Positions 14,410-25,211 of a stretch of 41,907 nucleotides of DNA are shown one piece after another (position 1 is the first letter of the stretch; every line of letters begins with the position of its first letter). Origin of the DNA: Gloeomargaritaceae cyanobacterium C42_A2020_066. Its GTDB lineage: Bacteria > Cyanobacteriota > Cyanobacteriia > Gloeomargaritales > Gloeomargaritaceae. A program made the position numbers and the translations under genes. The notes under the pieces are model-generated. The model saw only the letters and a program-made list of their open reading frames with translations, had not been told where the DNA came from and searched no databases. Where the stretch lies: the NCBI GenBank assembly GCA_015272465.1, contig JACYLR010000113.1:1-41907 (forward strand), written 5' to 3'.

Positions 14410-15120
14410 CTAGTCTCCTGGGGGCGGGGCTCCCTCGGAACCTTGCCACCGCCGCCACAAATCCGGTCGGCGGGCTTGGGTTCGAATCCGTTGCTGGTGA
14501 GCGCGCCACTGGGCAATCGCCTCGTGATTCCCAGACAGTAAGACCTCCGGCACCCGCCATCCCCGAAACTCGGCCGGCCGGGTGTACTGGGGATACTCCA
14601 ACAGGCCCTGACTGAAACTCTCCGCCTCCAGAGAGGCCGGTTTGCCCACCGTACCCGGTACAAGGCGCAGCACCCCATTCAGGATGGCTAGGGCCGGAAT
14701 CTCGCCCCCCGTCAGCACAAAATCCCCCAGGGACACCTCATCCGTAGCGAGATGGCGGATGCGTTCATCGAAACCCTCGTAATGGCCACAGATCAGAACA
14801 ACCTGGGCTAGCCGAGACCAAGTGTGCAGCAGGTTTTGCGTCAGCGGCTGGCCTTGGGGTGTCATCAGGATTACGGCCCGCGGTTCCAGTGCTGGCAGGG
14901 ACTCTACGGCTGCAAACATCGGTTCGGGTTTCAGCACCATCCCGACGCCCCCGCCGTAGGGTTCATCATCCACCCGGTGATGCTTGTCTAGGGCAAACTC
15001 CCGTGGATTGGTGAGATGCACCGTCGCCAAACCCCGTCCCAAGGCCCTGCCCACCAGGCCGGCCGCCAAAGGGGAGGCAAAGAACTCTGGAAACAGCGTG
15101 ACAATATCAAACCGCATCAT
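14410..15120 (-). CDS. trmD: tRNA (guanine-N1)-methyltransferase TrmD
   Basis: MRFDIVTLFPEFF, DDEPYGGGVGMVLKPEPMF, CGHYEGFDERI, SLGDFVLTGGEIPAL, YTRPAEFRGWRVPEVLLSGNH. Confidence 0.97.
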   Translation of the reverse strand: MMRFDIVTLFPEFFASPLAAGLVGRALGRGLATVHLTNPREFALDKHHRVDDEPYGGGVGMVLKPEPMFAAVESLPALEPRAVILMTPQGQPLTQNLLHTWSRLAQVVLICGHYEGFDERIRHLATDEVSLGDFVLTGGEIPALAILNGVLRLVPGTVGKPASLEAESFSQGLLEYPQYTRPAEFRGWRVPEVLLSGNHEAIAQWRAHQQRIRTQARRPDLWRRWQGSEGAPPPGD

Positions 15121-15198
15121 CCCGCATCTCCCAAAAGAAGGTCTTGGCCGGCCTAAAATTGGGTAGCCTTCAGTCCACTCGGCCTGTCAGGAGCGCGG

Positions 15199-15540
15199 AT
15201 GAGTACTGGTTGGGAACCCGATTGGGACGCGTTCTGGCAGGCGGCAGCCCAAACCGCCGAACAGGTTCTGGTTGAGCTAGAGGCTCGAGTAGACGAGGCA
15301 TTGCAGTCCTGGGAAGAGCCGCTCCTCGACCTCTTGATCTGGCTAGACGGCACCACTGAAGCCGTGACCCAACCCCTGCACCAAACGTTGGACCCAATCC
15401 TGGAGGAGCGGCCGGCCTGCGTAGGGTGCCGCAACTACCATGGGCAGATTTACGGCGACACCCTGCTGGTCTGTGCCATGCACCCCTACGGCTGGTCAGA
15501 AGGGGAGTGCCCCGACTGGGAGTCAGCCTGGACGAACTAA
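15199..15540 (+). CDS. Conserved cyanobacterial protein with CxxC...C...C motif, unknown function
   Basis: PACVGCRNYHGQIYGDTLLVCAMHPYGWSEGECPDWESA C-terminal motif. Confidence 0.75.
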   Translation: MSTGWEPDWDAFWQAAAQTAEQVLVELEARVDEALQSWEEPLLDLLIWLDGTTEAVTQPLHQTLDPILEERPACVGCRNYHGQIYGDTLLVCAMHPYGWSEGECPDWESAWTN

Positions 15541-15561
15541 AGCCCCCCCGGCCTTACGAGC

Positions 15562-15684
15562 CTAGGCTTTGCGATTCATTTGCTGGAGTTGAGCTAGCGC
15601 TGCCGCCGCAATGTTAAACGCCGCCCAAGCGGCCGCAGCTATCACCGGCCCCAGCACCACAACCACTCGCCAATCGAGATCCAT
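15562..15684 (-). CDS. psbY: Photosystem II protein Y (PsbY), 40 aa
   Basis: Hand translation [40 protein letters not shown]; below ORF-track cutoff; resembles PsbY (MDWR...GPV..A..WA.FNI..AAL.Q). Confidence 0.85.
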
Positions 15685-16166
15685 AGCGATTCTTCCCTGA
15701 AGCGTGACATTCCTAGTCTACCGGTAGGACGGACACCTTCCTAGGCCGCAGTCGAGAGAGGTCGCCCTAAATCAGGCAAACTCGGTGATCTACCATTGCG
15801 ACACAACTCAGCAACGCTTTCCCTAGGCACTCCGATGGCTGTAAGCGTCATGCCTGTTTCACCCCCACTGGGTTGACTACATGTTCAGCTTGGCTGCTGA
15901 CAACGCTTCATGCTGCGGGTTGCCAACCCTCCTCTCCCTTTTTCCGTCAAACCCTGAAAGTGCCCTATTGGATCGAGGGCATTAGACGCGTATGGATGCA
16001 CATCACCCCCTGCCCTCGCGGACGTGTGGCAGCGGACTATGGGATTCAGGTGATGGGTGTTTCAGGGGCCTGACGATGACTGACAGTGCCCACGGTGCCT
16101 TATTGGGCTTGACTCTCTAGCTGACAGGAGCCTTTAGGGTGAAAACGAGTAGCCTGCGAGGAAACC

Positions 16167-16580
16167 ATGTCCAACGCCCCTCCGACCCTCCTCAAAATTG
16201 GTGACGTGGCCAATCAAAGTGGTGTGCCGATCAAGACGATCCGTTACTACGAGGAACTGGGGCTGCTCAAGGCCACTGCCCGTACCGAAGGCCATTTTCG
16301 CCTGTTCCATCCCAGCACCACCCAGCGCTTAGCGTTTATTAAGCGCCTGCAAAGTTTGGGTCTAAGTCTCCAAGAGATTGGGGACTGTCTGCAAATCTAT
16401 GACCACGGCCATCTACCCTGTGCGGATATTGAAGCCAAGCTGAGCCGCCACGTCCTAGAAATTGACCGCCAGATTGCTGAACTACAACAGTTACGCCGGG
16501 AGTTGACCGACATCCTAGATCGATGGTCGCCTACCCCAGCAATCCAGCCGGGTGCGATCTGTCCGAACCTGCGTGTCTAG
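16167..16580 (+). CDS. MerR family transcriptional regulator, metal-responsive-like
   Basis: LKIGDVANQSGVPIKTIRYYEELGLLKATARTEGHFRLF; LPCADIEAKL and AICPNL cysteines. Confidence 0.9.
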   Translation: MSNAPPTLLKIGDVANQSGVPIKTIRYYEELGLLKATARTEGHFRLFHPSTTQRLAFIKRLQSLGLSLQEIGDCLQIYDHGHLPCADIEAKLSRHVLEIDRQIAELQQLRRELTDILDRWSPTPAIQPGAICPNLRV

Positions 16581-16672
16581 TGAGTGACTAGCCTCACTCA
16601 GCCGGCCAAATCTGGCTTCATATACCCACCTGCCGCGTTGAATTCAGCCGTCTAATTCACTGGTAATAATCC

Positions 16673-17332
16673 ATGCTAAAGCGATTTGTTTTGCGTCCGT
16701 TAGTGCCCTTTGCCCTCTGGATGCTTCCGGTTTTAGGGTTGGGGGGCTGCGCGAATCTGCTGCCCTCACGTACCTCAACCCCGCCCACAGCCCTTGCCAC
16801 CCTCCCCTCCGCCGCCCATATCCACACTATGGATTTGGGGCCGGCCGGCCGGGAGTACGACCTGCGGTTTTTGGATGCGATGGTGCCCCACCATGAAGGC
16901 GCGGTGGTGATGGCTGAGGATGCTCTGCAAAAAACGCAGCGCGCAGAAGTGCGGCAACTGGCTCAGGCGATTGTACGTGCCCAGGCTGAGGAAATAGCTC
17001 AAATGAAGCGTTGGCGAGCCGCCTGGTATCCCCAAGCTCCTGCGAATCTAGTGGCCTGGCATGGGGCAACGGGCCACAGTATGCCCATGTCGGACGAGCA
17101 GATACAGGCGATGCGTATGGACGAGGATCTGGGGCCGGCCGATGCCACCTACGATCCGCGGTTTCTGGATGGGATGATTCTGCATCATGAAGCTGCGGTG
17201 GTCATGGCCAAAGATGTGCTGCAAAAGTCCCAGCGTCCCGAAGTCCGGCAACTTGCCCAAGCCATCTTGGCGTCCCAGACGGCAGAAGTGAACCAAATGA
17301 AGGCTTGGCGACAGCAGTGGTATGGCCAGTAG
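16673..17332 (+). CDS. DUF305 protein, two tandem DUF305 units, lipoprotein-like signal
   Basis: YDLRFLDAMVPHHEGAVVMAEDALQKTQRAEVRQLAQAIV and YDPRFLDGMILHHEAAVVMAKDVLQKSQRPEVRQLAQAIL; lipobox-like LGGC. Confidence 0.9.
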   Translation: MLKRFVLRPLVPFALWMLPVLGLGGCANLLPSRTSTPPTALATLPSAAHIHTMDLGPAGREYDLRFLDAMVPHHEGAVVMAEDALQKTQRAEVRQLAQAIVRAQAEEIAQMKRWRAAWYPQAPANLVAWHGATGHSMPMSDEQIQAMRMDEDLGPADATYDPRFLDGMILHHEAAVVMAKDVLQKSQRPEVRQLAQAILASQTAEVNQMKAWRQQWYGQ

Positions 17333-17472
17333 CTGCCCTCAGGAAACCCGACTCAGCAGGCTGGTTAATGACCTGGATCTTTAGATAAGAGGTTAGTCGG
17401 CCCTATCCTCCCGTCCTTGCACAGGGAACCGATGGCCAGGCTATAGTGGAGTCAGCCGTGAGGGTATCAGCC

Positions 17473-17859
17473 ATGAAACGCCTCCTCCTGCTTGGCTTGG
17501 CCTGCGCTGGTTTTCTGGGGTTTCACAATCTGCAAGCTGCTCAAACCCGTTCCACTGCTCGCGCCCAAGGCATTACCGTTTACGCCGTTTCCAGCCAGTC
17601 CTGTAGTCTGGAACAGGCCAAGGCTGACAACATGGTGCAGGCGCTAGAAGCCCAGAAACTGCCCTACACCCTGCACTACATCGACCAAGACACAACGGCC
17701 AAACAGGAATTGGATAGTAAGGTCAAGACCCTGTTGGAGGAGCGGGTGGCCCAGGGCAACACCTCCAACTTGACCGTGCGTTTTCCCGTCGTTGATGTTA
17801 ATGGCACCCTGTTACTGGGAAACCCCTCGGTTGAGACCATTGAGCAGGCCCAACGATAG
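17473..17859 (+). CDS. Exported glutaredoxin-fold-like protein
   Basis: Signal peptide MKRLLLLGLACAGFLGF; ITVYAVSSQSCSLEQAKADNMVQALEAQKLPYTLHYID...TVRFPVVDVNGTLLLGNPSVETIEQA resembles a glutaredoxin-like layout without CxxC. Confidence 0.5.
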   Translation: MKRLLLLGLACAGFLGFHNLQAAQTRSTARAQGITVYAVSSQSCSLEQAKADNMVQALEAQKLPYTLHYIDQDTTAKQELDSKVKTLLEERVAQGNTSNLTVRFPVVDVNGTLLLGNPSVETIEQAQR

Positions 17860-17969
17860 CTAGCCTCACAGATCATCCCCCATCTGTGTTTGTGTGCTTG
17901 TGTAACAGCCCCCTCCGGCCGGCCGGAACGACCGTGTTACCATGCACCAGGCATTTTAGCGTCAAGATT

Positions 17970-19193
17970 ATGACACTTCGAGTTGCAGTTGTCGGGGGAG
18001 GGCCGGCCGGTTCCTCCGCAGCAGAAACCCTGGTGAAAGCGGGCATTGAAACCTATCTTTTTGAGCGCAGGCTCGACAATGCCAAACCCTGCGGCGGGGC
18101 AATTCCCCTGTGCATGATCAGTGAATTCGATCTGCCGCCCGAAATTATTGACCGGCAGGTGCGGCGGATGAAAATGATCTCGCCCTCCAACATTGAGGTC
18201 AACATTGGCAGCACCCTCAAGGCCGATGAATATATCGGTATGTGTCGCCGGGAAGTTCTAGATGGCTTCCTGCGGAACCGGGCAGCCCAGTTGGGAGCTA
18301 CGCTCATTAATGGTGTCGTCCAAGACATTACCTTCCCCCAGGAAGCCACCAAGCCTTACATTCTCCACTACATGGATCTTTCGGAGGGTGGGCCAGAGGG
18401 GACACCCCGTACCCTGGAAGTGGATGCCATTATCGGAGCCGATGGGGCCAACTCCCGGATTGCCAAGGCGATCAAGGCCGGTGATTACAACTATGCCATT
18501 GCCTTCCAGGAGCGCATTCGACTGCCCCAGGACAAGATGGACTACTACGAAGACTTAGCGGAGATGTACGTGGGGGATGACGTGTCTCCCGACTTTTACG
18601 CCTGGGTATTTCCGAAGTACGACCACGTGGCGGTGGGTACGGGCACGATGCGGGTCAATCAGGCCCGGATCAAGCAGCTCCAGGCAGGAATTCGGGCGCG
18701 AGCAGCCCATCGCCTCGAAGGGGGCAAGATCATCAAAGTGGAGGCCCATCCTATCCCTGAGCATCCCCGGCCGCGGCGAGTGGTGGGTCGGGTTGCCTTG
18801 GTGGGGGATGCGGCAGGTTACGTCACCAAGTCTTCCGGCGAGGGTATCTATTTTGCCGCCAAATCGGGTCGGATGTGTGCCGAAACCCTGGTGGAGGTTT
18901 CCCGTTCCGGCCAAAAGCTGCCCACGGAAGCTGAGATTAAGCAATACCTGAAGCGGTGGGATCGAACCTACGGGGCCACCTACTTGGTGCTTGACCTGCT
19001 GCAACGGGTGTTTTACCGCTCGGATGCCACCCGCGAAGCCTTTGTGGAGATGTGCGCTGACCGGGATGTGCAGCGCCTTACCTTCGATAGCTACCTCTAC
19101 AAGACCGTCGTTCCTGCCAATCCCCTTGTGCAGATGAAGATCACGGCCAAAACCGTTGGTAGCTTGCTGCGTGGCCATGCCTTGGCCCCCTAG
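17970..19193 (+). CDS. chlP: Geranylgeranyl reductase ChlP
   Basis: MTLRVAVVGGGPAGSSAAETLVKAGIETYLFERRLDNAKPCGGAIPLCMISEFDLP; C-terminal VFYRSDATREAFVEMCADRDVQRLTFDSYLYK. Confidence 0.96.
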   Translation: MTLRVAVVGGGPAGSSAAETLVKAGIETYLFERRLDNAKPCGGAIPLCMISEFDLPPEIIDRQVRRMKMISPSNIEVNIGSTLKADEYIGMCRREVLDGFLRNRAAQLGATLINGVVQDITFPQEATKPYILHYMDLSEGGPEGTPRTLEVDAIIGADGANSRIAKAIKAGDYNYAIAFQERIRLPQDKMDYYEDLAEMYVGDDVSPDFYAWVFPKYDHVAVGTGTMRVNQARIKQLQAGIRARAAHRLEGGKIIKVEAHPIPEHPRPRRVVGRVALVGDAAGYVTKSSGEGIYFAAKSGRMCAETLVEVSRSGQKLPTEAEIKQYLKRWDRTYGATYLVLDLLQRVFYRSDATREAFVEMCADRDVQRLTFDSYLYKTVVPANPLVQMKITAKTVGSLLRGHALAP

Positions 19194-19247
19194 TTAGGGA
19201 TATGGCAGGCAAGATTCTCTAGTCACTTCCCTGGCTTCCCGTTATCT

Positions 19248-19271
19248 CCCCCGGCCGGCCGGGGGTTTTTT
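19248..19271 (+). terminator. Rho-independent terminator downstream of chlP, stem built on GGCCGGCC
   Basis: Perfect palindrome CCCCCGGCCGGCCGGGGG followed by TTTTTT, ~55 nt after the chlP stop. Confidence 0.8.
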
Positions 19272-20111
19272 GTCGTTCTGTGGTCCCTACACCTGTGCTC
19301 CTCAGCCGACTCAGTCATCTGCAACACAGCAGACATGGACGGGATTTTGGGGCCAGAACAACACCCTCAACCTTGCTCGCGGGTTGGCATTCTGGGCACC
19401 TGTTGTCACCCCTTGTGGGTTGAAGAACTCGGGCCAACCGACGGCACCTCAAGCCACAACTCGGTCATCCTCCCCCATCCTGCAAAAGGCCCACCGGATC
19501 AGAGGGCCTGCCCCAGAGACCGCAGGACTCATCTGAACCAAATGTCGACCCTAGGCCAGACAATCTGCTCCCAGAAACCCCAGAGAAGTCAGGCTTAGGG
19601 GGTGGCCCAATCCACCCATGCTTCCAGGTGTTCGGGATGGGTAAGCCGCCAACTCGGCCACTGCCCACCTGGCATGAACCCTGGAGAAGTAATGCCTCGC
19701 ACAATCCGCGTTCCCTGTGACCTGCGCCCCTAGTAATCCAGGCAAGCCCAGCCTCTCAAAGTAGGTTTGAATCGGTGCCCCTGCCACCGTGGCTGGCTTG
19801 GGCCTAACCCTCAAAGACCCTAGAGAATTTGGGTGGTTCATAGGGGGATCAGGGCCTTCGTTATCTTTTTCCCTCAGGGCTTCCAACCCAACTTGGCCCC
19901 CTGGACAGGCTCGAATGGGTGTCAGGCTGACGGATGCAATCGCCCTTTTGACCCGGAAGACAGATCTGCGGAGTTTCCGAACCCCGCCGCCGATCTCCCC
20001 AATATTCGCCCATTCTGATCTGACAAATTGTGACCTGTGGGAGATATTGATGCCGGGAGTTTCCCAGATGATCCATTCCTGTTATTGTAATAGTTGAGTC
20101 TTTTACCTTCC

Positions 20112-20519
20112 ATGAACATGGCTGACAATTTAATGGAACTCCCGACCACTCCACTAACAGGAAAAGTCCTCCTCAAGCGGATCGAGGATCTCACTCACCT
20201 CTCACGCCGGGAGAAGGCCAAGCATTGTGGCTACTACAGCCGCACTAAAAATAATAAGGTGCGGGTTAATCTGGCGGACTTTATGGATGCCTTGCTGCTG
20301 GCCAAGGGGATTCCCTTGGATCCAGGCACCTCACGGGATGGCCGGGGCCGTGAACCCACATTTCGAGTGAGTGTCCACAAAAACGGTCAGATTGTGATTG
20401 GCGCCGCGTACACGGTGAAAATGGGCCTTAAGCCGGGGGATGAATTCGAGATCAAAACTGGCTACAAGCACATCCATCTCAATCAGGTGGAGCGGAGTAG
20501 CGAATTACTATCGGCCTGA
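20112..20519 (+). CDS. cyAbrB family transcriptional regulator
   Basis: PLTGKVLLKRIEDLTHLSRREKAKHCGYYSRTKNNKVRVNLADFMDALLLAKGI and C-terminal AbrB-like domain. Confidence 0.92.
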   Translation: MNMADNLMELPTTPLTGKVLLKRIEDLTHLSRREKAKHCGYYSRTKNNKVRVNLADFMDALLLAKGIPLDPGTSRDGRGREPTFRVSVHKNGQIVIGAAYTVKMGLKPGDEFEIKTGYKHIHLNQVERSSELLSA

Positions 20520-20537
20520 GGTCTCCGGGTTGTTCTG

Positions 20538-21593
20538 ATGACCCGCAGCACCGGCCGGCCGGCCCTCGCTTTGACCTTGGGGGACCCGGCGGGAATTGGC
20601 CCCGAAATCCTGCTCAAAAGCCTAGCGGATCCCCAAATTACGGCCCAAGCTCACCTGACGGTGGTCGCTCCACCGGAACTCTTAGCCGTGGCTTGGCGGC
20701 GTTTGACCCACCAGGGTGGCCCTGTGCCCGACTGGTCGGACATCTCCATCCTGCCTGTACCGATGGAACCGACCTGGTTCGAGTCTGTGCGACCGGGTCA
20801 GGGGACGGGCGTAACGGGGGCGATCAGCCTGGCCTGCTTGGAAACGGCCGGCCGGGCGGCTCTGGAGGGTCAATTCGATGGGGTGGTCACTGCGCCTATT
20901 GCCAAGGCGGCGTGGTGGGCGGCCGGCCGGTGCTACCCAGGTCAGACGGAATGCCTAGCCGAGATGGCGGGGGGCATGCCCGTCGGTATGGCCTTTGTAG
21001 CTCGTTCTCCCCACACCGGCTGGGATCTGCGGGTGCTGCTGGCGACGGTGCATGTTCCCCTCAAGGACGTGCCGCGTTTGTTGACCGCGGAGCGCTTAAC
21101 CACCCAGGCTGAGCTACTGGTGGACTGGCTGCGCCATAGCCTGGACATCTCTTGCCCGCGGCTGGCGGTGGCTGGCCTCAATCCCCATAGCGGGGAGCAG
21201 GGCCACCTCGGCACCGAGGAGCAGGTTGCGCTAATCCCTTGGATGCAAGCTTTCCAGGAGCGGCACCCTGATGTCATCCTGGAAGGTCCCGTGCCCCCTG
21301 ACACGCTCTGGGTGAGGCCGGCTCAGGCTTGGCACCACCCGAACGCTAGGCCGAGTCACGATGCCTACCTGGCTCTCTACCACGACCAAGGGTTAATTCC
21401 CGTCAAGGTTCTGGCCTTTGACCAAGCAGTCAATACAACCTTGGGGTTGCCTTTCGTGCGCACATCCCCAGACCACGGCACCGCCTTTGATATTGCCGGG
21501 CAGGGCATCGCCAATCCCGCCAGCTTTAAGGCTGCCATTACCTGGGCGGCCCGCTTGGCCCAACGCCGCTTTGCTTCAGACCCCTCGCCCTAG
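20538..21593 (+). CDS. pdxA: 4-hydroxythreonine-4-phosphate dehydrogenase
   Basis: LTLGDPAGIGPEI, VTAPIAKAAW, HTECLAE-like GQTECLAEMAG, AGLNPHSGEQG, YHDQGLIPVKVLAFDQAVNTTLGLPFVRTSPDHGTAFDIAG. Confidence 0.96.
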   Translation: MTRSTGRPALALTLGDPAGIGPEILLKSLADPQITAQAHLTVVAPPELLAVAWRRLTHQGGPVPDWSDISILPVPMEPTWFESVRPGQGTGVTGAISLACLETAGRAALEGQFDGVVTAPIAKAAWWAAGRCYPGQTECLAEMAGGMPVGMAFVARSPHTGWDLRVLLATVHVPLKDVPRLLTAERLTTQAELLVDWLRHSLDISCPRLAVAGLNPHSGEQGHLGTEEQVALIPWMQAFQERHPDVILEGPVPPDTLWVRPAQAWHHPNARPSHDAYLALYHDQGLIPVKVLAFDQAVNTTLGLPFVRTSPDHGTAFDIAGQGIANPASFKAAITWAARLAQRRFASDPSP

Positions 21594-21967
21594 GATTTCG
21601 CCTGCTCCAGGTTCTGCCGCAGGGTGGCAATCTCGGCGGTCAGGGTCGTGAGTTCACTGACGGGAGATGGACTGGTGACAAGGGTAGCCTCGACGACGGG
21701 TTCCGTCGGGGTCGGTGCCGGGGCAGCGGGGGGCGGTGTGGGCACCAGGTTGGGGAACAGGGTCGAGACAAACCGCCGGGCTTCTTGCTCGGTCTGCTCG
21801 CCGCGCTGGGCTAAATCGCTGAGGACTTGACGAGTCTCCTGGGTTACTTGGGCCAACCCTTCAGCTCGTTTCTGCGGATCCTGGATCAGGTCGAGGGCAA
21901 CTCCTGTAGCCCCTAGGGCGACCCGCATTCCGGCTTGGAGCCACTGCTCCGGGTTTGAAAAGGACAT
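21590..21967 (-). CDS. Conserved hypothetical protein, phasin-like amphipathic helices
   Basis: SNPEQWLQAGMRVALGATGVALDLIQDPQKRAEGLAQVTQETRQVLSDLAQRGEQTEQEARRFV; C-terminal helix; convergent overlap with pdxA stop. Confidence 0.6.
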   Translation of the reverse strand: MSFSNPEQWLQAGMRVALGATGVALDLIQDPQKRAEGLAQVTQETRQVLSDLAQRGEQTEQEARRFVSTLFPNLVPTPPPAAPAPTPTEPVVEATLVTSPSPVSELTTLTAEIATLRQNLEQAKS

Positions 21968-22089
21968 GACAATCACACCAAGCTCTGTCCACAGCTTAGC
22001 GCAGATGCTCAGGCAGCCCGGCGGCCGGCCGGGGGGTCTCCTACAATCAGATCAGCGCCCTGATTAGACCCTCCTGCCAGTCTCATCCC

Positions 22090-24456
22090 TTGACCGAACC
22101 GATCCAGGCCGAAACCTTGACCCTCCTGGAGTGGTCTCGCCTCTGTCAGCATTTGGCCACCTTCACATCGACGAAAGCTGGCGCTTTGCGGGCCGCTGAC
22201 TGGCGGCCGGCCGAGGATCAAGCTGAGGCACAGCGCTGGCAGGCCGAAACCCAGGAAGCGGCGACTTTAGAGCAGTTCCAATCCACGGGGCTGAGTTTTG
22301 CGGGGGTGGTGGATCTGCGGCCCCTGGGTCAGCGGGCCAGCTTGGGGGGCCTGTTGCAGGGAGAGGATTTCCTGGCCATTGCCGCCACGCTGAGTGCCGC
22401 CCGCCTCCTCCGCCGTCAGGTGCAACAGGTGCCGGATGTGCCCACCCTGAATGGCCTTGTGGAACCTCTGCGTACCCACCCGCCCCTGGAGCAGTCTATC
22501 CACCACTGCATTGATGACCAAGGTGAGGTGACCGACCGGGCCAGCCCCACTTTGGCTGCCATACGGCAACGGCGCCGCCAAGTCCAGCAGCAGATTGAAC
22601 ACACCCTGCAAAGCTTGCTCCAGCGCCATAGCCAAGCGATCCAGGAACCCCTGATTACCCAGCGGGCCGGCCGGTACGTGATTCCTGTCAAGGCCAACCA
22701 GCGGGAGGCCATTCCAGGTATCCTCCACGACCAATCCACCAGCGGAGCAACGGCCTACATTGAACCCCAGGCGATTGTGCCCTTGGGTAATCAATGGCGA
22801 CGCCTCTGTCAGGAGGAAACGGCAGCCGCGGAAGCCGTGCTTTGGGACTTGAGCCAGCAAGTACAGGCTGTGGCGGCGGATTTGGCAACCCTGACCGCTA
22901 TTCTGATTGACCTGGATCTGGCGGTGGCCCGTGCCCGCTATGGTTGCTGGCTAGACGGCCGGCCGCCCCAGTGGATCACAGCAGACCAGGCCCTAGAAGC
23001 CCGACAACTCCGCCATCCCCTTTTGGTCTGGCAGGCCCGCCACGAAAGCGGCCGGCCGGTGGTACCCATCGATGTGGTGATGCCCCACCATCTGCGCGCT
23101 CTTGTGATCACTGGCCCCAACACTGGAGGGAAAACCGTTACCCTCAAGACCCTGGGCCTCGCGGTGCTCATGGCCCAAGCGGGCCTCTGGGTGGCGGCAG
23201 CCGATCCCGTCTATTTACCCTGGTTCGACCAGGTACTGGCGGATATTGGCGATGAGCAGTCCCTCAGCCAAAATCTCTCCACCTTCTCCGGGCACATTCG
23301 TCGCATCAGTCGCATCCTGGAGGCCGCCACCCCACACTCCCTCGTCCTTTTGGATGAGGTAGGGGCGGGCACTGACCCCAGTGAGGGCACAGCCCTAGCG
23401 GCAGCCCTGCTGCAACACCTGGCTGATCGGGTGCGGCTTACCCTGGCCACCACCCACTTTGGTGAACTGAAGGCCCTCAAGTATCAACGACCGGACTTTG
23501 AGAACGCCTCGGTGGAGTTTGATGACCAGACCCTCAGGCCCACCTATCGCCTGCTCTGGGGGATTCCCGGCCGGTCTAATGCCCTGACTATTGCCCGCAG
23601 CCTGGGATTGGCCGAGGTGGTGATTGACCAGGCCAGTCAGTGCTTGGGGGGGCTTTCCCTCGACCTCAACCAGGTGATTGCCGACTTGGAAATGCAACGG
23701 CGGCAACAGGCGAGCAAGCTCCAAGCGGCCGCGACACTGCTGGCTGAGACCGAGCGGCTGCACCGGGAACTGAACGAAAAATATCATCTGTTGCAGCAGC
23801 AGCAGGCGGCCCGTCAGCAGGCGCACGTCCAGGCTCTCCAGGCGGAACTGACAACAGCGCGATCCGAGATTGCCCAGGTGATCCGCAAGCTCCAGCAGGG
23901 GCCTGTCACAGCCCATGCCGCCCAGCGCGCCAGCGAGGGACTGGATCAGATCGCGGCGCGTGCCCGGCCGGCCGGCCCACCGCCCCCTCCTCCAGGATTT
24001 CTGCCCAAGGTTGGGGATCGGGTACGCCTGACCCGCTTTGACCAAGTGGGCGAAGTGCTGGGTGAGGTGAATGACGCGAAGGAAGTCACCGTTCGGCTAG
24101 GTCAACTGCGGATGACAGTGCCCTTGGCGGAAATCACTGCCCTCGACGGCCGGCCGGCCCAGTTACCGCCACCCCCGCCGCCGCCATTACCCACAGCTCC
24201 CACCGAACCCCAGGTACGCACCCCCCGCCGCACCCTGGATCTGCGGGGGCATCGAGCTGAGGATGCAGAAGTCCTGCTAGAGGAAGCCCTCAGTCGGGGG
24301 CACGGGACGCTCTGGGTGGTTCATGGCAAGGGCACGGGCCGGTTGCGGCAGGCGGTACATGCCTATCTTGCCGACCATCCCTTGGTGCAAGACTTTACCT
24401 TGGCGGCTACGGAGGAGGGGGGCGCGGGGGTTACCGTGATTCAGTTGATCCACTGA
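22090..24456 (+). CDS. mutS2: MutS2 family protein
   Basis: VITGPNTGGKTVTLKTLGL, LVLLDEVGAGTDPSEGTALAAALL, STFSGHIRRI, C-terminal Smr domain (LDLRGHRAEDAEVLLEEAL...VVHGKGTGRLR); TTG start. Confidence 0.96.
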   Translation: MTEPIQAETLTLLEWSRLCQHLATFTSTKAGALRAADWRPAEDQAEAQRWQAETQEAATLEQFQSTGLSFAGVVDLRPLGQRASLGGLLQGEDFLAIAATLSAARLLRRQVQQVPDVPTLNGLVEPLRTHPPLEQSIHHCIDDQGEVTDRASPTLAAIRQRRRQVQQQIEHTLQSLLQRHSQAIQEPLITQRAGRYVIPVKANQREAIPGILHDQSTSGATAYIEPQAIVPLGNQWRRLCQEETAAAEAVLWDLSQQVQAVAADLATLTAILIDLDLAVARARYGCWLDGRPPQWITADQALEARQLRHPLLVWQARHESGRPVVPIDVVMPHHLRALVITGPNTGGKTVTLKTLGLAVLMAQAGLWVAAADPVYLPWFDQVLADIGDEQSLSQNLSTFSGHIRRISRILEAATPHSLVLLDEVGAGTDPSEGTALAAALLQHLADRVRLTLATTHFGELKALKYQRPDFENASVEFDDQTLRPTYRLLWGIPGRSNALTIARSLGLAEVVIDQASQCLGGLSLDLNQVIADLEMQRRQQASKLQAAATLLAETERLHRELNEKYHLLQQQQAARQQAHVQALQAELTTARSEIAQVIRKLQQGPVTAHAAQRASEGLDQIAARARPAGPPPPPPGFLPKVGDRVRLTRFDQVGEVLGEVNDAKEVTVRLGQLRMTVPLAEITALDGRPAQLPPPPPPPLPTAPTEPQVRTPRRTLDLRGHRAEDAEVLLEEALSRGHGTLWVVHGKGTGRLRQAVHAYLADHPLVQDFTLAATEEGGAGVTVIQLIH

Positions 24457-24618
24457 TCCACTAGGTCAGGGCATCTGGGGGTTTCCGAGGTCAAATTGTT
24501 GGTTGATGCCCATCGCCGGAGCGGGCGTGGGGCGCGGCACCCAAGGCTTGCACCACAGAATACCCGGGCCATTACGGAAGCCGCCGCCTAGAATGGAGGG
24601 TGTTCTTAACTGCCGCCC

Positions 24619-24897
24619 ATGCCTCCTCGCTGGCCCCGCAAACCTGACCGCGCCGACCCGGCCTACCGCAAGCTGGCCGACCGTATAAACTTAGCTGTCC
24701 ACGTTGCCGCCTTTGCCGCCGTTAATTCCGGTCTCTGGTTTGGGGCGCAACTGCTGACCCAGCCGGGGGAGTCTCTGGTGTGGCCCTGGTTGCCTTGGAT
24801 AACAGGGGTTTGGTTAGGTTTCCTGGTGATTCATGGGGCCTACGTGCTCTGGGCCACGCCCGCCCCAACCGATCAGCCCAGTCCTCCAGAACCATGA
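24619..24897 (+). CDS. 2TM domain-containing small membrane protein
   Basis: Short protein with two predicted TM segments (AVHVAAFAAVNSGLWFG; WLPWITGVWLGFLVIHGAYVLW). Confidence 0.6.
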   Translation: MPPRWPRKPDRADPAYRKLADRINLAVHVAAFAAVNSGLWFGAQLLTQPGESLVWPWLPWITGVWLGFLVIHGAYVLWATPAPTDQPSPPEP

Positions 24898-25211
24898 GCC
24901 AGTCCCGATCTACCGAAGAAACAGAAGCTATCGAAGCCCTAGCGGCCGATATTGGCGACCGGGTCTACCTGGATATTGCCCGCTGGCATCTCTATCTCAA
25001 GGATGCCCGGCTCCATACCCAGGTGGCCCAGCAAGCCTATGACCTTGTACGCAAAGGCCCCCCAATTGAAGCCGAAGCTCTAGACATTCTGCGGCAAATT
25101 GCGGTGGAGGTGGGTGGCGGCCGACGTCAGATTCCCCTGCTGGATCTGATTCCCCTCCAGGGCCAAGTGGCCTTCCTCGACGTTCTTGAAGCCTTTCAGC
25201 GGCGTCTTTAG
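24894..25211 (+). CDS. DUF3181 family cyanobacterial protein
   Basis: [39 protein letters not shown]...[21 protein letters not shown] overlap with upstream gene. Confidence 0.75.

Follow-up and report, generated by a model that had tools for sequence, protein, structure and literature searches.

The chlP transcript in the window, i.e., in the 41,907-nt stretch of DNA analysed as a whole, most probably ends at a canonical one-way intrinsic (Rho-independent) terminator. The centre of its stem-loop is one copy of GGCCGGCC, a palindromic octamer that is repeated thousands of times in the same genome. We assign a probability of about 0.85 to this reading, in which the recruitment of an abundant palindrome at chlP is an isolated event, and not an instance of genome-wide use. 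The features on which the argument turns are as follows.

17964..19193, + strand: chlP, geranylgeranyl reductase (TIGR02028 equivalog, E 1.2e-226; ORF list); the transcript being terminated
19194..19247, + strand: 3' untranslated spacer of 54 nt, from the chlP stop to the hairpin (sequence)
19248..19265, + strand: predicted terminator hairpin, stem CCCCCGG/CCGGGGG (7 GC pairs), loop CCGG, a perfect 18-bp palindrome (fold, -14.4 kcal/mol; terminator scan)
19253..19260, no strand: GGCCGGCC octamer, the dominant iterated palindrome of the genome, here in its common 10-base form C-GGCCGGCC-G (octamer counts)
19266..19271, + strand: T6 tract, the putative U-tract of the terminator (sequence, terminator scan, fold)

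The hairpin downstream of chlP

A sequence-only reading of the window had placed a palindrome followed by six T about 55 nt past the chlP stop. An exact check of the window confirms this arrangement: CCCCCGGCCGGCCGGGGG occupies 19248-19265 and T6 occupies 19266-19271, with 54 nt between the TAG stop codon, which ends at 19193, and the stem. The palindrome consists of C5 (19248-19252), GGCCGGCC (19253-19260) and G5 (19261-19265), and T6 directly abuts the stem. The identity of chlP is given by its TIGR02028 match (E = 1.2e-226); according to the ORF list, its open frame reaches upstream to 17886.

The RNA is predicted to fold into a 7-bp all-GC stem closed by a CCGG tetraloop, with an energy of -14.4 kcal/mol. 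Owing to the high GC content of the region, the z-score of this energy is modest (-1.3 to -1.7). Nevertheless, a terminator scan ranks the site as the best of its kind within 15000-25000, and when the 150 nt after chlP were shuffled with preservation of dinucleotides, none of 5,000 sequences contained an equal or better perfect hairpin with T6 behind it; with a relaxed tail (5 T in 6), 2 of 5,000 reached this hairpin score. No T tract follows the hairpin on the - strand, and thus the terminator would act in one direction only.

The distribution of similar structures was assessed in a 1.37-Mb sample, about half of the 2.73-Mb genome, in which a simple hexamer model called 1,014 genes and 78% of the sequence as coding. 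Strong perfect hairpins with at least 5 T in 6 were found downstream of genes in 17 cases, one of them the chlP site, elsewhere between genes in 3, at an unassignable position in 1, and in coding DNA in none. That is, strong T-tailed hairpins lie mostly at gene 3' ends and never inside genes, which makes it very probable that the chlP site functions as a one-way intrinsic terminator. The proposal that the octamer sits in the stem-loop of such a terminator is therefore well supported, namely by the fold, the T6 tract, the shuffles and the distribution of the hairpin class.

Similar structures recur after chlP in other cyanobacteria. Within about 150 nt of the gene, a T-tailed hairpin is present at 89 of 125 distinct cyanobacterial 3' ends, versus 18 on the antisense control. 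These hairpins lie at a median of 38 nt past the stop, and their stems are unrelated and vary by lineage. Cyanobacteria lack Rho, and in S. elongatus mapped 3' ends fall at predicted intrinsic terminators (PMC3219970). A mapping study of 2026 found that read-through declines as the number of consecutive U increases, and also that just 22% of cyanobacterial transcription units end in a hairpin with a U-tract (PMC13289151). Since such ends are a minority, a predicted site need not be the dominant 3' end.

From these features we infer that termination takes place at the chlP site in vivo. RNA polymerase would pause at U6 during folding of the 7-bp all-GC hairpin. Release of the RNA there would insulate the co-directional genes downstream, i.e., an AbrB-type gene at 20094 and pdxA at 20538. 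The GGCCGGCC copy would provide the CCGG loop and the stem pairs next to it, and the C5 and G5 flanks together with T6 would be what turns this copy into a terminator.

In the approximately 820 nt from the terminator to the AbrB-type gene (19272-20093), no gene was called and there is no Rfam match at the gathering threshold; the window as a whole likewise has no Rfam match at gathering thresholds. Weak, sub-threshold matches to NsiR1 and anti-hemB over the hairpin were taken as chance. The 18-mer CCCCCGGCCGGCCGGGGG has a second copy in the genome, at C123:10287-10304, which was set aside; it has no T tract, and its place is not comparable.

The octamer and the order of events at chlP

The sequence-only reading had also described GGCCGGCC as iterated, and the counts bear this out. 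The window contains 86 copies versus 3 expected, and the 1.37-Mb sample contains 2,761, i.e., 2,021 per Mb, or 47-fold over the expectation from base composition; the total for the genome is roughly 5,500. A C precedes about 81% of the copies and a G follows about 81%. The extended form CGGCCGGCCG occurs 3,623 times in this genome versus 0-3 times in seven genomes of the same family. Owing to this near-absence in relatives, we consider the octamer nearly private to this genome, and hence recent.

HIP1 (GCGATCGC), by comparison, has just 21 copies in the 1.37-Mb sample. An extreme excess of a GC-rich palindrome is thus found where HIP1 is depleted, as is typical of alternate HIPs, and on sequence grounds GGCCGGCC fits the role of an alternate HIP that replaces HIP1 in this genome. 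Like HIP1 and the alternate HIPs, it is GC-rich, palindromic and strongly over-represented, with about 2,000 copies per Mb, but it is absent from the alternate HIPs that Elhai names (PMC4390886). The text of that paper does not mention terminators. As to where the octamer lies, head-to-head gaps are the richest in the 1.37-Mb sample, with 2,414 copies per Mb, and tail-to-tail gaps the poorest, with 1,096, a difference to which missed small genes could contribute.

Whether the octamer or the terminator came first concerns the past of the site, and either history is compatible with the reading of the site as an intrinsic terminator. We put somewhat below even the chance that an existing C5-loop-G5-T6 terminator of chlP gained its central octamer through the general process that installs octamers in this genome. 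Such a history would accord with the recency of the octamer and with the wide spread and ever-changing stems of chlP terminators. Moreover, octamer-free terminators with the same scaffold exist in this genome, for example CCCCCTCTGCGGAGGGGG/TTTTTCGC in L247, where CCCCCTCTGCGGAGGGGG is followed by TTTTT, and GGGGGAGGCTGCGGCTTCCCCC/TTTTTCCG in L189. It is on account of these C5...G5 and G5...C5 terminators that the earlier suggestion of terminators seeding octamers keeps its place. However, no relative was found with the same downstream arrangement minus the octamer; the sequence after chlP differs in the same-family genomes examined, and a further chlP search around G024 yielded one genome only. 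The data are equally compatible with the opposite order, in which the octamer came first and point mutations then added the flanks and the T tract; the abundance of the octamer fits this order.

It is far less probable that the palindrome is a DNA-level element, i.e., a methylation or protein-binding site, with an incidental T tract and no termination. Nearly all other octamer copies are indeed devoid of a T tract and located inside genes (2,372 of 2,761). Yet the joint occurrence of the hairpin and T6 is improbable by chance, as reflected in the shuffles (0 of 5,000), and the class to which the structure belongs is confined to non-coding DNA, chiefly gene 3' ends. Among all octamer contexts, furthermore, only that of chlP has a 7-bp stem that directly abuts T6.

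With regard to a cognate enzyme of the octamer, a PF00145 m5C methylase was considered and rejected, as the family is absent from the genome. The locus L293:1261-2187 (G000:C85) encodes a DNA methyltransferase that carries an SPPY motif and matches PDB entries of N4-cytosine methyltransferases (8s9m, 2e-19); no restriction enzyme is recognisable in the next ORF. This methyltransferase is a candidate cognate enzyme.

Octamers and terminators across the genome

The sequence-only reading had proposed that the iterated palindrome has been co-opted as a terminator. At chlP the octamer very probably does form part of a terminator, but in this genome the proposal fails for the octamers as a class. 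The enrichment of T tracts expected after intergenic octamers is not significant: of the octamers that face outwards at gene ends, 3 of 290 have a T5 within the next 8 nt, versus 2 of 440 intergenic octamers with other orientations (Fisher P = 0.39), in a sample whose later part was picked partly from contigs with octamer-plus-T5 matches and is thus biased towards a T-tract association, not against it. Of the three, only the octamer at chlP has a stem. For T4 in co-directional gaps the result is likewise flat, with 5 sense versus 3 antisense of 173. In the whole genome, T5 after the octamer does exceed A5 (41 versus 21 sites, P = 0.015, with overlaps removed by hand), but the excess lies mostly within genes (28 T5 versus 13 A5 in the sampled half), and it is therefore no argument for termination.

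Viewed from the side of the terminators, the octamer is present in 1 of the 17 strong ones in the 1.37-Mb sample and in 2 of 31 looser ones, versus roughly 0.6 expected (P = 0.13). Apart from chlP itself, systematic use could draw on a site in L171, GGCCGGCCGCCAAACCGGCC/TTTTTGGT, which lies 49 nt past a stop and has the octamer as its 5' arm. It could also draw on octamer palindromes with at least 5 extra pairs, which are 7 times commoner outside genes (9 of 386) than inside (8 of 2370); their number outside genes, however, is not above the flank-shuffle expectation (9 versus 5.35), and we rejected this excess as a signal. Pairs of octamers are too few to account for hairpin arms: in the 1.37 Mb none is separated by less than 11 nt, and only four lie at gaps of 3-20 nt.

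Because the T-tract test is flat, only 1 of the 17 strong terminators carries the octamer, and octamer density is lowest tail-to-tail (1,096/Mb, against 2,414/Mb head-to-head), we conclude that chlP is a single, isolated recruitment, and that the data do not support use of the octamer for termination throughout this genome. Systematic co-option as a terminator stem, in the manner of uptake sequences in Neisseria and Haemophilus, is largely refuted by these counts and is improbable. The negative result is a useful control: a density of 2,000 copies per Mb is not enough on its own to turn an octamer into a terminator system.

Inside genes, octamer palindromes with at least 5 extra pairs are scarce relative to a flank shuffle (8 versus 36). 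This scarcity perhaps reflects avoidance of strong hairpins in mRNA, or else an effect of GGCC runs or codons.

Putative HIP1-bearing terminators and comparison with known systems

HIP1 lies inside 8 of the 89 chlP terminators of other cyanobacteria, mostly as inverted pairs, versus about 1.9 expected from average HIP1 density. Two pairs of loci are near-duplicates (L030/L031 and L018/L087), which leaves about six independent HIP1-bearing chlP terminators (Poisson P = 0.015). The chlP terminators made of two inverted HIP1 copies and a T tract are those at L018:7271, L030:3190, L031:2181 and L074:7243 (pair starts), and also those in L087 and L307.

A scan of 194 cyanobacterial genomes for HIP1 pairs with a spacing of 3-16 nt gave 174 raw matches with a T5 behind the pair, in 47 genomes, versus 51 with an A5, in 27 genomes. 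The ratio, about three to one, is approximate, as raw matches count long T runs repeatedly and include repeated elements. Single HIP1 copies at sampled loci have no such bias (22 T5 versus 22 A5 overall, and 19 versus 22 for unpaired copies). The pattern of HIP1-pair terminators was not planned for beforehand and rests on predicted terminators; we regard it as a lead. In the literature searched, no description of HIP-based terminators was found.

We tentatively propose, at a little less than even odds, that HIP palindromes of Rho-less cyanobacteria have repeatedly been drafted as terminator stems. Most of these would be inverted pairs, and the one here a single flank-extended copy. The HIP population would thus form a reservoir of terminators, as uptake sequences do in Neisseria, and at chlP this would have happened in several lineages, each time independently, and with two kinds of HIP. 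The wider question is whether abundant palindromes of unknown function feed the evolution of terminators in bacteria without Rho.

The chlP terminator itself is ordinary. Like other cyanobacterial intrinsic terminators, it consists of a GC-rich hairpin and an abutting U tract, is located a few tens of nt downstream of a stop codon, at a gene end, and belongs to a class excluded from coding DNA. It shares this architecture with the octamer-free terminators of the same genome and with the chlP terminators of other cyanobacteria; it differs from them in that the centre of its stem-loop is an iterated octamer, and in nothing else.

Compared with the HIP1-pair terminators of chlP (L018, L030, L031, L074, L087 and L307), the site similarly combines an iterated palindrome with a T tail, and theirs lie 20-50 nt past the stop. 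There, however, two HIP1 copies make up the two arms, whereas here one octamer would make up the inner stem and the loop.

The HIP1-bearing terminators resemble the uptake-sequence terminators of Neisseria and Haemophilus. In Neisseria and the Pasteurellaceae, as at chlP, a motif with thousands of copies supplies the hairpin (PMC1852404). The motif share is large in those bacteria, i.e., about 55% of confident terminators in Neisseria and 17-29% in the Pasteurellaceae (PMC1852404), whereas it is 1 of 17 strong and 2 of 31 looser terminators here. Uptake-signal terminators are made of two inverted motif copies and are enriched in tail-to-tail gaps (PMC1852404); the chlP site, in contrast, uses a single palindromic copy lengthened by the flanking bases, and in this genome octamers are sparse in tail-to-tail gaps, the reverse of Neisseria. 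The route proposed for the uptake-signal terminators, namely an abundant motif that acquires a T tail by point mutation (PMC1852404), would fit the chlP site as well.
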